Shown here piece after piece: positions 8,089 through 12,509 of a stretch of 64,000 nt of DNA. Source of the DNA: Archaeoglobus profundus DSM 5631. GTDB lineage: Archaea; Halobacteriota; Archaeoglobi; Archaeoglobales; Archaeoglobaceae. Within the stretch, counting starts at the first letter, position 1. Each line of letters starts with the position of its first letter. Location of the stretch: NCBI RefSeq assembly GCF_000025285.1, contig NC_013741.1, positions 1 to 64,000 on the forward strand, given 5' to 3'. The notes under the pieces are model-generated. The model searched no databases. It saw nothing but the letters and a program-made list of their open reading frames with translations, and was not told where the DNA came from. A program made the translations under genes and the position numbers.

Positions 8089-9195
8089 CTACACCTCAAC
8101 AGCCCTAACACCCACACCCATCAGCTTCCTTATAACCGCATCCAAGAACCTAACGTGCAAACCCCTCTGCCCTACGAATGCCCCTATCTCACCCTTAACT
8201 TCAACCGTCAAGTACTGCCCCACGAAGTCGACATCTCTTATGTGTTTCCAAATCCAAGAGACGGGATGAATCGATCTTATCAACTCCCTGAAATCTAAAG
8301 TAAGCTCAACACCTCTTATTCTTTTACCTACATCTTCCTCAATAGCCTTTATTCTCTCTCCCCCTCTCCCGACTAACCTTCCGTAGTGTCCCTGCTTGAC
8401 TATTATTAGTGCATCTGGTGTATGCTCGGAAGTAATCTCAAACCTCTCCTTCTCTTCACAGAATTCTACAACTGTTATTACGTCCGCATCTGGGGAATGG
8501 ACTTTTGCGGATTCAAAAATCTCCTTTTCCACCTCGCTAAGCTCCCTGCTCCTCATCCTGTACTCTATGAGTAACCTCAAGCCCCTCTTAGCTCCCTCCC
8601 TAACTATATCCTTTATACCTAAGTCGACTACCTTTGCATTTTCTTCTCCAGTGAGTATATCCCTGACCATACTGGCTGGATCCTGAGTCTCTTCCATCTT
8701 GAACGACTGAAATATAGGGTCACCAGCAACTATGAGCCTGCTGTTTCTTCCCATTCTTATCAGAATCTCTACTACACTCTCAGGTTTTAAGGTTTGTATC
8801 TCATCGAGGAAAACAACGGAATCGTCGAAAGTTCTTCCTTTGAGGTAGTGCGGATCGACGAACACTATTTTTCCATCCGAAATCAACCTCTCCACTTCAC
8901 TCCAATCCACGAACTGACCTATAACATCAAGCACGTAAGCCTTCGCCAACTCTAAAAACTTCTCTCCATCTGCAAGAGTTAACTCTTCTCCCGTAACTAC
9001 ATCTATGACAGGTTTAACTACAATGAAACGCTTGTAATCACTTGAAACTGCATCTATTCCGTAAGCTAAGCTGAAGAGAGACTTTCCAGTTCCAGTAGGT
9101 CCAAATATTCCAATTATCTCGTAATCGGGATTTTTTAGAGCTTTAACAATCTCCTTCTGACCTCTTGTGAGTGGTGTGATTTTCTCCAGTAGCAT
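8089..9195 (-). CDS. PhoH-like ATPase with KH RNA-binding domain
   Basis: This 368-residue protein couples a PhoH-type P-loop ATPase to an RNA-binding C-terminus. Walker A (GPTGTGKS) is at 32-39 and Walker B (FLDEIQ) at 129-134, with the PhoH motif AGDP at 157-160. The C-terminal third carries a KH GxxG loop (GRGG, about 276-279) and a second GxxG-like loop (GQRG) near 344, reminiscent of the tandem KH domains of NusA. An RNA remodelling or RNA-processing role is likely but not established. It heads a minus-strand operon with the phosphoesterase. Confidence 0.88.
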   Translation of the reverse strand: MLLEKITPLTRGQKEIVKALKNPDYEIIGIFGPTGTGKSLFSLAYGIDAVSSDYKRFIVVKPVIDVVTGEELTLADGEKFLELAKAYVLDVIGQFVDWSEVERLISDGKIVFVDPHYLKGRTFDDSVVFLDEIQTLKPESVVEILIRMGRNSRLIVAGDPIFQSFKMEETQDPASMVRDILTGEENAKVVDLGIKDIVREGAKRGLRLLIEYRMRSRELSEVEKEIFESAKVHSPDADVITVVEFCEEKERFEITSEHTPDALIIVKQGHYGRLVGRGGERIKAIEEDVGKRIRGVELTLDFRELIRSIHPVSWIWKHIRDVDFVGQYLTVEVKGEIGAFVGQRGLHVRFLDAVIRKLMGVGVRAVEV

Positions 9196-9277
9196 GAAAT
9201 ATTATAGATAAGGATGGATTTAAATACGTTTCCAACTTCGTAAACTCTAAATACTTTGATGGACTAACAATAACTGT

Positions 9278-9766
9278 ATGAATGAATCTCTACGCTTAAA
9301 GGAGCTGGCGAGACTTATAAGGGCTTTGGAAAATGCTGGCGTTTATAAATTTAGTATTGAGACCTTTGAAGATAGGTTAAAGCTACAGAAGATAGTTTAT
9401 ATTGCAAAACACTTCGGGATAGATTTAGGATACGAATTTAACGAATACATTAGAGGTCCGTACTCTCCAGATTTGGCTGACGATTACTATTCGCTCAATG
9501 AAAAATGGAGCGATCTTAGGTGTTTAGAAGAACCTTTAACTTGTGAAGAAGTAGAGAAGCTCATTGAATTCCTACGAGGTAAATCAACTGCAGAGCTTGA
9601 GGGTATAGCGACGGGATTGATGTTTTTGAAAATACTCAAGAGGAAAGGAATCTATGGGGAAAAGGACCTCAGGGAATTGCTTGTAGGTATAATCAAATCA
9701 AGAAAGCCGTTTTTATCAAATATAGCGGAACGGCTTGTAGATACGGTAATTGAAACCTTCAACTGA
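9278..9766 (+). CDS. YwgA/Panacea (DUF4065)-like protein
   Basis: This 162-residue protein has a segment reading RLKLQKIVYIAKHFGIDLGY, followed by YIRGPYSPDLADDYY at about residues 46-60. The pattern KLQKxxY...(W/Y)xxGPYS is typical of the YwgA and Panacea/SocA (DUF4065) families. Panacea domains serve as antitoxins in several bacterial and phage toxin-antitoxin pairs. No catalytic residues are apparent. The stop abuts, with no gap, the stop of a convergent PIN-domain gene, which suggests a linked pair. The antitoxin role is inference; the family link is moderately sure. Confidence 0.65.
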   Translation: MNESLRLKELARLIRALENAGVYKFSIETFEDRLKLQKIVYIAKHFGIDLGYEFNEYIRGPYSPDLADDYYSLNEKWSDLRCLEEPLTCEEVEKLIEFLRGKSTAELEGIATGLMFLKILKRKGIYGEKDLRELLVGIIKSRKPFLSNIAERLVDTVIETFN

Positions 9767-10378
9767 TTAAAATAGTTCGGCTAAGTCTTTAATCCTTTTT
9801 AACTTCGGATTGCGTTTAATCTTTTTATTTTCAATAATATCAACACTCACGCATTCAATCATTCTATCTTCTATCGTTAAAAGAGCTTCTGCATCTTTAT
9901 CACAAATAGCTTGTGCCAAAATCAAAGCATCATCTCCATCTAACATCTTACCGCCCCACCACTCGTTTTGATTGCTAAATTCATTTCTAACGATTTCCTC
10001 AGCTATTTTGAATATATTACATTCATCATTAAATCGATACGTTTGGTCATCGTATTTGCAAAAAGTATCTCTTTCGATTGGTAGAATATCTATGTTGTAT
10101 CTGTTTAGAAATTCCAATAACCATTCTACATATTCTTTCTTTTTTTCGCTCTCCGCTATGAATCTTACAACTTCACCGAGTGCCAGCGTTGATATTGTCA
10201 ACTTATACCTTGACTTGGCGATATTCAACTTACTTATGTTGCTCTCAAGGACTTCTAATTTATCTTTCTCCCTATTACCTCTACGTTTTTTACACAGACT
10301 TGGGCTTGTTTCAAATTTCATCAACTCGATCACAACACTCGCATCGAGGTATAATCTTCTCTTTGAATTCGAATCCAA
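9767..10378 (-). CDS. PIN-domain nuclease-like protein
   Basis: This 203-residue protein begins with a PIN-type strand (LYLDASVVIELM, D12). Further acidic candidates are E69 (LALGEVV), D147/D149/D150 (LDGDDALILAQA) and D171 (TIEDRM), which together form a plausible four-acid Mg-dependent RNase site. It is longer than VapC toxins (about 130 residues) because of insertions at about 25-55 and 100-140. The region is AT-richer than its surroundings. No VapB-like antitoxin precedes it; instead a YwgA/Panacea-like gene converges on it. It could be a free-standing RNase or a toxin. Confidence 0.75.
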   Translation of the reverse strand: MDSNSKRRLYLDASVVIELMKFETSPSLCKKRRGNREKDKLEVLESNISKLNIAKSRYKLTISTLALGEVVRFIAESEKKKEYVEWLLEFLNRYNIDILPIERDTFCKYDDQTYRFNDECNIFKIAEEIVRNEFSNQNEWWGGKMLDGDDALILAQAICDKDAEALLTIEDRMIECVSVDIIENKKIKRNPKLKRIKDLAELF

Positions 10379-10421
10379 AAACTATCACCTCAAAAAAATC
10401 TAATAAAATATAATTAAATAA

Positions 10422-12509
10422 TTAAAATCTAACTCTCTTTCTGTCGAACAACTCTTGCACCTTACCGTCGTTCCAACCGCTCACCCTCTGATAGTAACCG
10501 GTAACACGGGAGTACCATTCCACATCGTTACTATTGCAGAACGGACAGTTCCTGTTAATACCACCACTCAACTTTCCACAACTCCTGCAGAACGTCATGT
10601 CCTTCGTGTAAGCCCAGTAGCCTATCAGAGTCTTTGTGGCAATCTTTTTGGTAAGCTCCCATAATAGTTCGGGGTTCGGTGAACTCTCTCCAATCCAAAC
10701 GTGAGCCATCATACCTCCATTGCAGAGGGGATGGAACGAACCCTCTACCTTCAACCTCTCGAACAACGGCACGTCCGCACTAACCCTGACGTGGGAGCTG
10801 TTCGTGTAGTAAACAGCACCAGTTTTCACGTTACCCTGAACTATGGCTTTTCCGTTGAACTCCTTCAAGTCGAGCAAAGCCAATCTATGCGCACATGATT
10901 CGGCTGGTGTTTGCGTTATGACCCATCTCTGCCCAGTTTCGATGCTCCATTCCATCGCTATATCCATCATCCTCTTTATAACTTCCAAACCGAACTTCCA
11001 TGCATCTCTGCTCTCGTGCAATTCCTGACCTATGTGTGCCTTCAGCATCTCGTTCAATCCGACGAAGCCTATAGACCTAACAACCTTATCAACCCTGTAG
11101 TAAGGCTCTCCATCAACATCCTGCGTTAGGAACGGTAAAGCTCCTTGCTTCATCCTCTTTATGATTATCTCCCTCTTTAGCTCTATAACCTCTCTTGCCA
11201 AGTTCATCCTCTGCTCGAGGATTTCAAACAATCTCTCGTCATCCCCATTCGCTTCGTAAGCTATCCTCGGCAAGTTTATGGTTACAACTTGCAAACTTCC
11301 CGTTCTCATGCAACCCTTCCGGAAGTCCTCCCAGTCCTGATTGTCCGGAGCTAAGACCAGTCTGCAACACTGAGCGAACACGTTATCTGGCAAGTATCCA
11401 GCCAATAGATTAAGGAAGTACGGCGATCCGAACTTAGCAACAACCTTATGAACGAGAATCATGAATTCATCGAATCCCTCTTTCTTGAAGCACTCCTTTC
11501 TCAACTTGTAGTTTGGCTTGGGGAAGAAGAAAGGCTTTCCGAGGTAGTCTCCCTCTAAGTATACCTCTGTCAAGGCTTTAGCAAACATTATTGCTTCCTC
11601 TTCGAAATCTCCGTATGTAACAGATTCCTTGACAACACCACCCGGTAAAACAGCTGGTAAGTCTTGGCAAATTTTAGGAACGCCGTATTCTATGTCTATA
11701 TCGCTGAAAACGGTCTGACCTCCTCTTGCGACATACATCTGAGACATTTCGTAAACGAACATCTGAGCCAACTGCTTTATCTTCTCGTAGCTCAATCCCT
11801 GCATATATGGTGCGAGCCAGACGTTGAAGAAGTCCAGACCTTGCCCACCGGCGAAATTAGTCTGAGCAGCAGCTAAAGCCTTTGCTGCATGTAAAATTGC
11901 AACCTCTGGATGCTTTGCAGGTCCAGCTACAGCTGTGTTTTCACCAGTTCCATCAACCTTAAGCCCGTTCTTCAAGAACCATCTGAGATCGTGCTGGAAG
12001 CAGTACGGACGAGTAGCGAAGTATTCGAGGTCGTGAATGTGAATTTCACCACGCATGTGAGCATCGGCCAAATGCAGAGGTAGAACTTTGAGTAAAGCGT
12101 ATTCCTTCATAACCCAATCTGCAACGAGCTTGTGAATTGTTTCTGGATTGTGCTGGAGGTTTGCGTTTTCCCTAACACCCTTCTCGATTATCTGGGTTAC
12201 GTCGTAAACCGGTAAGCCTAAACGTGTGTAGTTAGCTCTCTCTTTCTCCAAACCCCTCTCCAAAAGCTTAACGTTTACGATTTCTCTAATGAGAGGTGCG
12301 GAGATGAAGTTCAGCTTCAATCTCTTAATGGTCTCTTCAACCTCTAGGGCAATCTCCTCAGCAGTCTTTCTATCCAATCCCGTCTCCTTAACGAGCGACT
12401 TAACTATCCTTTCTCTATCGAACTTCTCGATGGTGTTTCTAGATGTTCTAACCGTTAGGTATTCCTTATTATGGTCAAACATCTCAGTATCGACAGAAAC
12501 TTCGTCCAT
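10422..12509 (-). CDS. nrdD: Anaerobic ribonucleoside-triphosphate reductase
   Basis: This 695-residue class III ribonucleotide reductase makes dNTPs anaerobically through a glycyl radical. An ATP-cone regulatory domain occupies about residues 18-110 (VRTSRNTIEKFDRERI). The long barrel follows. The C-terminus has a zinc site (CRSC...CPFC) and the glycyl radical loop SRVTGYY. The activating SAM enzyme NrdG is not adjacent. A BRE/TATA-like stretch (GAAAAACTTAAAA on the minus strand, near 12532-12545) lies about 27 bp upstream. It fits a strictly anaerobic host. Confidence 0.96.
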   Translation of the reverse strand: MDEVSVDTEMFDHNKEYLTVRTSRNTIEKFDRERIVKSLVKETGLDRKTAEEIALEVEETIKRLKLNFISAPLIREIVNVKLLERGLEKERANYTRLGLPVYDVTQIIEKGVRENANLQHNPETIHKLVADWVMKEYALLKVLPLHLADAHMRGEIHIHDLEYFATRPYCFQHDLRWFLKNGLKVDGTGENTAVAGPAKHPEVAILHAAKALAAAQTNFAGGQGLDFFNVWLAPYMQGLSYEKIKQLAQMFVYEMSQMYVARGGQTVFSDIDIEYGVPKICQDLPAVLPGGVVKESVTYGDFEEEAIMFAKALTEVYLEGDYLGKPFFFPKPNYKLRKECFKKEGFDEFMILVHKVVAKFGSPYFLNLLAGYLPDNVFAQCCRLVLAPDNQDWEDFRKGCMRTGSLQVVTINLPRIAYEANGDDERLFEILEQRMNLAREVIELKREIIIKRMKQGALPFLTQDVDGEPYYRVDKVVRSIGFVGLNEMLKAHIGQELHESRDAWKFGLEVIKRMMDIAMEWSIETGQRWVITQTPAESCAHRLALLDLKEFNGKAIVQGNVKTGAVYYTNSSHVRVSADVPLFERLKVEGSFHPLCNGGMMAHVWIGESSPNPELLWELTKKIATKTLIGYWAYTKDMTFCRSCGKLSGGINRNCPFCNSNDVEWYSRVTGYYQRVSGWNDGKVQELFDRKRVRF

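Follow-up and report, generated by a model that had tools for sequence, protein, structure and literature searches.

Some widely used searches for toxin-antitoxin (TA) systems require the two genes to lie on the same strand. As far as the accessible parts of the papers state, TAfinder 2.0 demands same-strand genes (PMC10767807), the second approach of Makarova 2009 relied on co-directed neighbours within 100 bp (PMC2701414), the HEPN survey applied an operon rule and also admitted head-to-head pairs (PMC3710099), and in NetFlax a type II TA is by definition a bicistronic operon (PMC10440598). A conserved tail-to-tail module would therefore be passed over by searches with a same-strand requirement. 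Within the same accessible parts, the YwgA family is absent from the PIN antitoxins listed by Makarova 2009 (PMC2701414), and the words YwgA and convergent appear neither in NetFlax (PMC10440598) nor in the text of the Panacea paper. A precedent for convergent toxin and immunity genes is provided by SdpC and its immunity operon, according to the part of that article available (PMC1626106). The accessible literature that was covered contained nothing linking YwgA to an antitoxin and no tail-to-tail protein TA of the YwgA/PIN type.

Here we describe a pair of genes for a YwgA/Panacea-like protein and a PIN-domain protein found in a stretch of 64,000 nucleotides from Archaeoglobus profundus DSM 5631 (hereafter the window). 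Judging by its homologues, the pair is kept on opposite strands in distantly related archaea. We consider it probable that the pair forms a type II-like module in which the YwgA-like protein serves as antitoxin by binding and blocking a VapC-fold RNase, with the genes arranged tail to tail and not as an operon.

Results

Layout of the locus

A sequence-only reading of the window had described a Panacea/YwgA-like gene and a gene for a long PIN nuclease meeting without a spacer in locally AT-rich DNA. Each of these points was borne out. The coordinates and stop codons were confirmed (Table 1); GC content was 0.380 in the YwgA-like gene and 0.342 in the PIN gene, against 0.420 for the whole window; and the PIN protein is longer than the VapC chains that it matched, most of which have 123-147 residues. 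Both genes of the pair in a second genome of the genus (G004) had a GC content of 0.333, with flanking genes at 0.453 and 0.481. No second copy of either gene was found in the A. profundus genome at E<=0.001. The position of TCTAAATACTTT would fit a leaderless mRNA for the YwgA-like gene.

Table 1 Features of the YwgA-like/PIN locus, in window coordinates; the Shine-Dalgarno-like and TATA-like elements were read from the sequence.
Feature	Coordinates	Strand	Details
YwgA/Panacea-like gene	9278..9766	+	162 aa; ATG start, TGA stop; predicted antitoxin
PIN-domain (VapC-fold) gene	9767..10378	-	203 aa; TTG start, TAA stop; predicted RNase toxin
Convergent stop codons TGA (+) / TAA (-)	9764..9769	.	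0 nt spacer; TGA ends at 9766, TAA starts at 9767
Shine-Dalgarno-like GAGGTGAT	10384..10391	-	5 nt upstream of the PIN TTG; putative function
TATA-like TCTAAATACTTT	9246..9257	+	~27 nt upstream of the YwgA-like ATG
PhoH-KH protein gene	8089-9195	-	flank of the pair
Anaerobic ribonucleotide reductase (nrdD) gene	10422-12509	-	other flank of the pair

The abutting stop codons to which the earlier reading had drawn attention are no evidence by themselves because such ends are common in the window: 9 of its 15 convergent neighbouring ORF pairs had a gap of 0 nt or less, a count made on mechanically called ORFs of at least 90 aa, some of them possibly spurious. The evidence lies in conserved linkage.

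The phoH-like and nrdD genes flank the pair both in the window and in G004. Close matches to the phoH-like gene were present in 6 of 40 genomes of the family, and its neighbours differ in the four outside the genus. Separately, the anaerobic ribonucleotide reductase of G004 (L032:2085-3557) carries an apparent intein-like stretch before TVFSDIDIEYG that the window copy lacks.

The YwgA-like protein

The AF2 model of the YwgA-like protein (pLDDT 94.9, pTM 0.90) comprised seven helices and a short two-strand hairpin, within which the conserved RGPYSP motif sits. Residues F30, Q37, K38, G60, Y62 and L66 were invariant in 44 YwgA-like sequences. When the model was compared with solved structures using VIA-align, the best match was the C-terminal domain of DarG bound to DarT (PDB 7yk3; Z 11.9, rmsd 3.0, 142 residues aligned), a value to be read with the tool's warning that Z below ~13 can reflect an arrangement common among helical proteins. 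The runner-up structure reached Z 6.3 over 59 residues, and no Panacea structure was listed among the matches, an absence that carries no weight against that family. Foldseek also aligned the model with DarG, though only at E 0.16-0.21 (prob 0.97-0.98).

Sequence profiles were then compared. PADLOC matched residues 21-76 to DarG at E 2.4e-5; the DarG profile score was 17.3, short of the 250-bit cut-off, and concerned the C-terminal part only. A profile search of the PDB with the YwgA-like family recovered 7yk3 at E 0.031, and the YwgA-like profile A3 detected a pair of DarG proteins (at 2e-7 and 5e-4) when run on a small set of ORFs. The Panacea profile (PF13274) matched none of 17 YwgA-like homologues at E<=0.1 and nothing in the A. 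profundus genome. Alignment of the YwgA-like family with the Panacea alignment by hhalign, however, gave 96.2% (E 2e-9, 108 columns around LQK...GPYS), compared with 0.1% for a control alignment of PIN with Panacea. The YwgA/Panacea label of the earlier reading is thus upheld by hhalign, and by structure the protein resembles the C-terminal domain of DarG. Judging by profiles and predicted fold, the YwgA-like protein is distantly related to Panacea and to the DarT-binding domain of DarG; remote homology and a seven-helix, two-strand core place it in the Panacea superfamily in the broad sense.

None of the 17 antitoxin homologues matched a DNA-binding Pfam family. The sole Pfam match of the protein was to the Death effector domain (E 7.4e-4, below cut-off), which we took as chance since it was present in only one of the 17 homologues. 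As a separate observation, the proteins at L111 and L114 (and L150) score above the Panacea cut-off and also match the C-terminal part of DarG and the YwgA profile, forming a bridge between the three families.

The PIN protein

The AF2 model of the PIN protein (pLDDT 87.7, pTM 0.84) matched VapC 3zvk in Foldseek (E 1.6e-5, prob 1.0), a structure that the PIN profile recovered by sequence too (E 5.7e-4). Taken alone, the window protein matched the Pfam PIN family at E 0.011, under the cut-off; PF01850 matched 7 of 10 members of the family at E<=0.1. Among 21 complete homologues, D12, E69 and D150 were conserved in all, D160 in 20, and position 170 was D or E in all. We take these acids to be the metal ligands of PIN domains. 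The PIN label holds through the VapC fold of the model. With the fold and the acidic active-site residues both indicated, the protein is predicted to be a VapC-fold metal-dependent RNase and the toxin of the pair.

Conserved linkage of the two genes

Single-sequence searches with the PIN protein missed most relatives, finding them in 3 of 294 genomes with none confirmed among the wider genome contigs, and a profile was needed. A profile built from 16 PIN homologues and run against 294 genomes of the same phylum returned 37 rows at E<=1e-5. Strong matches (E<1e-20) occurred at 15 places, a patchy presence of 15 in 294 genomes. At 14 of these the PIN gene was convergent to a YwgA-profile match only a few bases away; the PIN gene was broken in two of the 14 (G051, G273), and in a third (G174) the YwgA gene was cut by a contig end. 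At the fifteenth place (G141), the PIN gene was interrupted by three stops and the genome had no YwgA match. The weaker rows numbered 22. Four were fragments beside YwgA (G088 twice, G058 and G194); the remaining 18 (E 1e-9 to 1e-5), among them a stretch of just 78 bases where a contig ends (G015), had no YwgA match nearby and look like ordinary VapC relatives, the border between strong and weak being our own choice.

An independent search, again starting from PIN, covered 29 genomes of a second phylum (that of Methanodesulfokora and an Aegir Thermoproteota bin) and yielded three new places, all with the partner: two convergent, with overlaps of 20 nt (L176) and 15 nt (L177), and one co-directional with a broken PIN gene (L178). 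In the PIN-led searches of the 294 and 29 genomes, none of the complete strong PIN matches lacked YwgA. Co-occurrence in other archaea, which the sequence-only reading had put forward as a check, is therefore seen in 14 of 15 and 3 of 3 cases.

Starting from the YwgA alignment, 44 loci were retrieved from GTDB genomes. A PIN-profile match adjoined the YwgA-like gene at 27 of them, broken copies included, in convergent orientation at 22 and co-directionally at five (L054, L058, L060, L061 and L062). The other 17 comprised two with MazF and a winged-helix gene, three with a second PemK type, two with an HD gene, and ten without a PIN, MazF, PemK or HD profile match (L044 and L075 among the ten lying at contig ends); given these ten, the protein may have other roles. 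Within the 294-genome sample, 17 of 39 genomes with YwgA had a convergent PIN match by profile.

We compiled 19 complete convergent pairs, to which L176 and L177 are additional. Gaps in the 19 spanned -24 to +18 nt, with a median of 0 and ten pairs at 0 or less. The PIN proteins were 20-43% identical to that of the window and the YwgA proteins 28-64%.

Orientation, mobility and decay

Complete co-directional pairs, with the antitoxin gene first, were found at L054 (4 nt overlap) and L058 (23 nt gap); L060 and L061 match part of the PIN model only and were left out. Since two complete antitoxin-first operons exist, convergence is dispensable. In both protein trees L054 and L058 group as sisters, which suggests that it was the pair that changed orientation. 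The PIN and YwgA trees resemble each other: their distance matrices correlated with r=0.72 over 21 pairs and r=0.55 over the 16 that remained once five near-duplicates or partial rows had been taken out; none of 5000 permutations reached either value, a procedure that leaves shared species history in. A different neighbourhood was seen in G075, where the pair has an archaeal phage integrase (PF16795, 5.2e-32) on one side and a DDE transposase (PF13610, 1.5e-6) on the other, and we read this as suggesting that the pair is mobile as a unit.

A PIN gene that was broken, deleted or shifted in frame, next to an intact YwgA gene, was seen in G051, G058, G088, G273, G112, L040, L046 and L178, with large parts of it absent in G058, G088 and G273; both genes were broken in G194. 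The frameshifts in metagenome assemblies (G051, L040, L046, L178) are possibly assembly errors. One-sided decay of this kind would be expected of a PIN protein that is harmful without its partner.

Other partners of YwgA-like proteins

A MazF-profile match adjoined a YwgA-like gene in 21 rows, corresponding to 18 distinct loci, all with a winged-helix gene upstream; no winged-helix gene was found beside the PIN-matched rows. The second PemK type was the neighbour at three loci and an HD gene at others. PemK_toxin (PF02452), HD (PF01966) and HTH_34 were confirmed on example loci. Plasmids and phages, queried with the YwgA protein of the window alone, gave no match.

Several further arrangements were observed. 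HD-domain genes adjoin YwgA-like or Panacea-like genes co-directionally at L121:657-2438 (same family), L031, L066, L071, L080 and L128, spanning archaea, bacteria and viral contigs, and the HD protein may be a further toxin partner of these proteins. At L123:1779-3000 and L124:607-1906 the YwgA-like gene is followed by a co-directional gene of 129-130 aa that matches no Pfam family. A PIN gene of another kind is convergent with this small gene and overlaps it by ~47 nt, possibly a second tail-to-tail PIN system that was assembled separately. Related YwgA-like genes at L053:3893-5329 and L057:148-1572 are each followed by a similar gene of 261-276 aa, a candidate toxin. YwgA-like genes at L064:3-1226 and L068:1500-2795 (an archaeal and a bacterial bin, respectively) precede a similar small protein with a hydrophobic start, a candidate membrane partner.

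Discussion

That the two genes form a TA pair had been proposed in the sequence-only reading, and the proposal stands in part: it is supported by one-sided decay and partner swapping and draws nothing from the abutting stops. Gene order and its conservation, the folds, the intact acids, the decay and the exchange of partners form the observed basis of the type II-like module that we favour; toxicity, binding, RNase activity, separate promoters and any trigger we infer. According to this model, the PIN protein would be a metal-dependent RNase of the VapC fold that arrests growth when active, and the YwgA-like protein would bind and mask it, analogous to the blocking of DarT by the C-terminal domain of DarG. 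With each gene under a separate promoter, neither a shared operon mRNA nor the antitoxin acting at a shared promoter would fix the proportion of the two proteins. Were the antitoxin lost or inactivated, for example disturbed by something sensed, the RNase would be freed.

The YwgA-like protein might instead be chiefly a sensor of viruses, with the PIN nuclease as an effector released upon infection. We think such abortive infection possible, although we lean against it. In the accessible part of their paper, the NetFlax authors prefer the view that Panacea senses cues which activate TAs (PMC10440598), and both the patchy distribution and the position of the G075 pair between integrase and transposase genes are compatible with a defence role. 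Set against this, PADLOC named no system beyond the weak DarG match, and a search of IMG/VR yielded only four YwgA-like relatives, with no PIN-profile match at any of them.

Convergent genes have no shared promoter, and the balance of a TA pair so arranged would therefore have to be achieved through separate promoters, the stability of the proteins or 3' ends that overlap. This third option would amount to a hybrid, excludon-like control combining type I and type II features, in which protein neutralisation is joined by mutually antisense 3' ends, each transcript lowering the other. The gaps of -24 to +18 nt in the 19 complete pairs mean that untranslated 3' tails must enter the coding strand of the partner. 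In 15 of 17 loci no more than 180 nt separate the YwgA stop from the first run of at least 5 T, which mostly falls in the PIN gene, an uncontrolled count of little weight. Precedents, as given in the accessible parts of the articles, are overlapping transcripts and noncontiguous operons in bacteria (PMC7154746) and antisense RNAs in Halobacterium type II TAs (PMC6523106). The complete co-directional pairs at L054 and L058, however, manage without overlapping convergent ends, and short convergent gaps are common in the window (9 of 15); we regard hybrid control as rather unlikely. A broader conjecture, which we judge unlikely, is that archaea widely carry a non-operonic class of protein TA in which convergence is itself functional, with own promoters, an antitoxin without a DNA-binding part and overlapping 3' ends that mutually restrain the mRNAs, dosage being set by convergent transcription together with protein masking.

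It is very unlikely that the pair consists of a PIN RNase and a regulator of ordinary RNA metabolism, inherited together by happenstance. The PhoH-KH neighbour in the window and G004, possibly RNA-related, would suit such a role; the presence in only 15 of 294 genomes, the different neighbourhood in G075, the decay confined to PIN, and the MazF and PemK toxins adjoining relatives of the YwgA-like partner all argue against it. Finally, that these are chance neighbours in compact DNA, where 9 of 15 convergent window ORF pairs touch or overlap, has a negligible likelihood, as the same two families abut in the other neighbourhood of G075 and in lineages with PIN proteins 20-43% identical to that of the window, and the partner is present in 14 of 15 and 3 of 3 PIN-led cases; by these comparisons, retention of the pair across other families and phyla is beyond chance.

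If the type II-like reading is correct, the Panacea/DarG-C-terminal antitoxin superfamily would gain, in archaea, a YwgA-like branch whose own toxin partners are PIN, MazF/PemK and possibly HD, and the pair raises the question of how a TA maintains its balance without a shared promoter.

Comparison with known systems

Conserved linkage, as in type II TA systems, characterises the pair (14 of 15 strong PIN places; 3 of 3 in the second phylum), whereas the co-directional operon typical of that class is seen at L054 and L058 and not in the window. The predicted PIN toxin resembles that of VapBC in its VapC fold and conserved acids; the YwgA-like antitoxin, however, falls outside the PIN-linked antitoxin families in the accessible part of Makarova 2009 (PMC2701414), showed no DNA-binding Pfam match among 17 homologues, and is encoded convergently. 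The wHTH-YwgA-MazF operons of other archaea likewise combine a YwgA-like homologue with a toxin from an RNase-type family (PF02452), but are co-directional with a winged-helix gene upstream, a match that the PIN loci do not show. The Panacea/SocA (PF13274) antitoxins of PanAT systems share promiscuous partners and, following the part of the NetFlax description available (PMC10440598), seven helices and two strands; they differ in that the PF13274 profile matched 0 of 17 homologues at E<=0.1 and that the window layout is convergent. With respect to DarTG, the window pair has neither a macrodomain nor DarT, its partner being a PIN nuclease in mostly convergent orientation, while the model of the YwgA-like protein matches the C-terminal domain of DarG (7yk3) along nearly its whole length.
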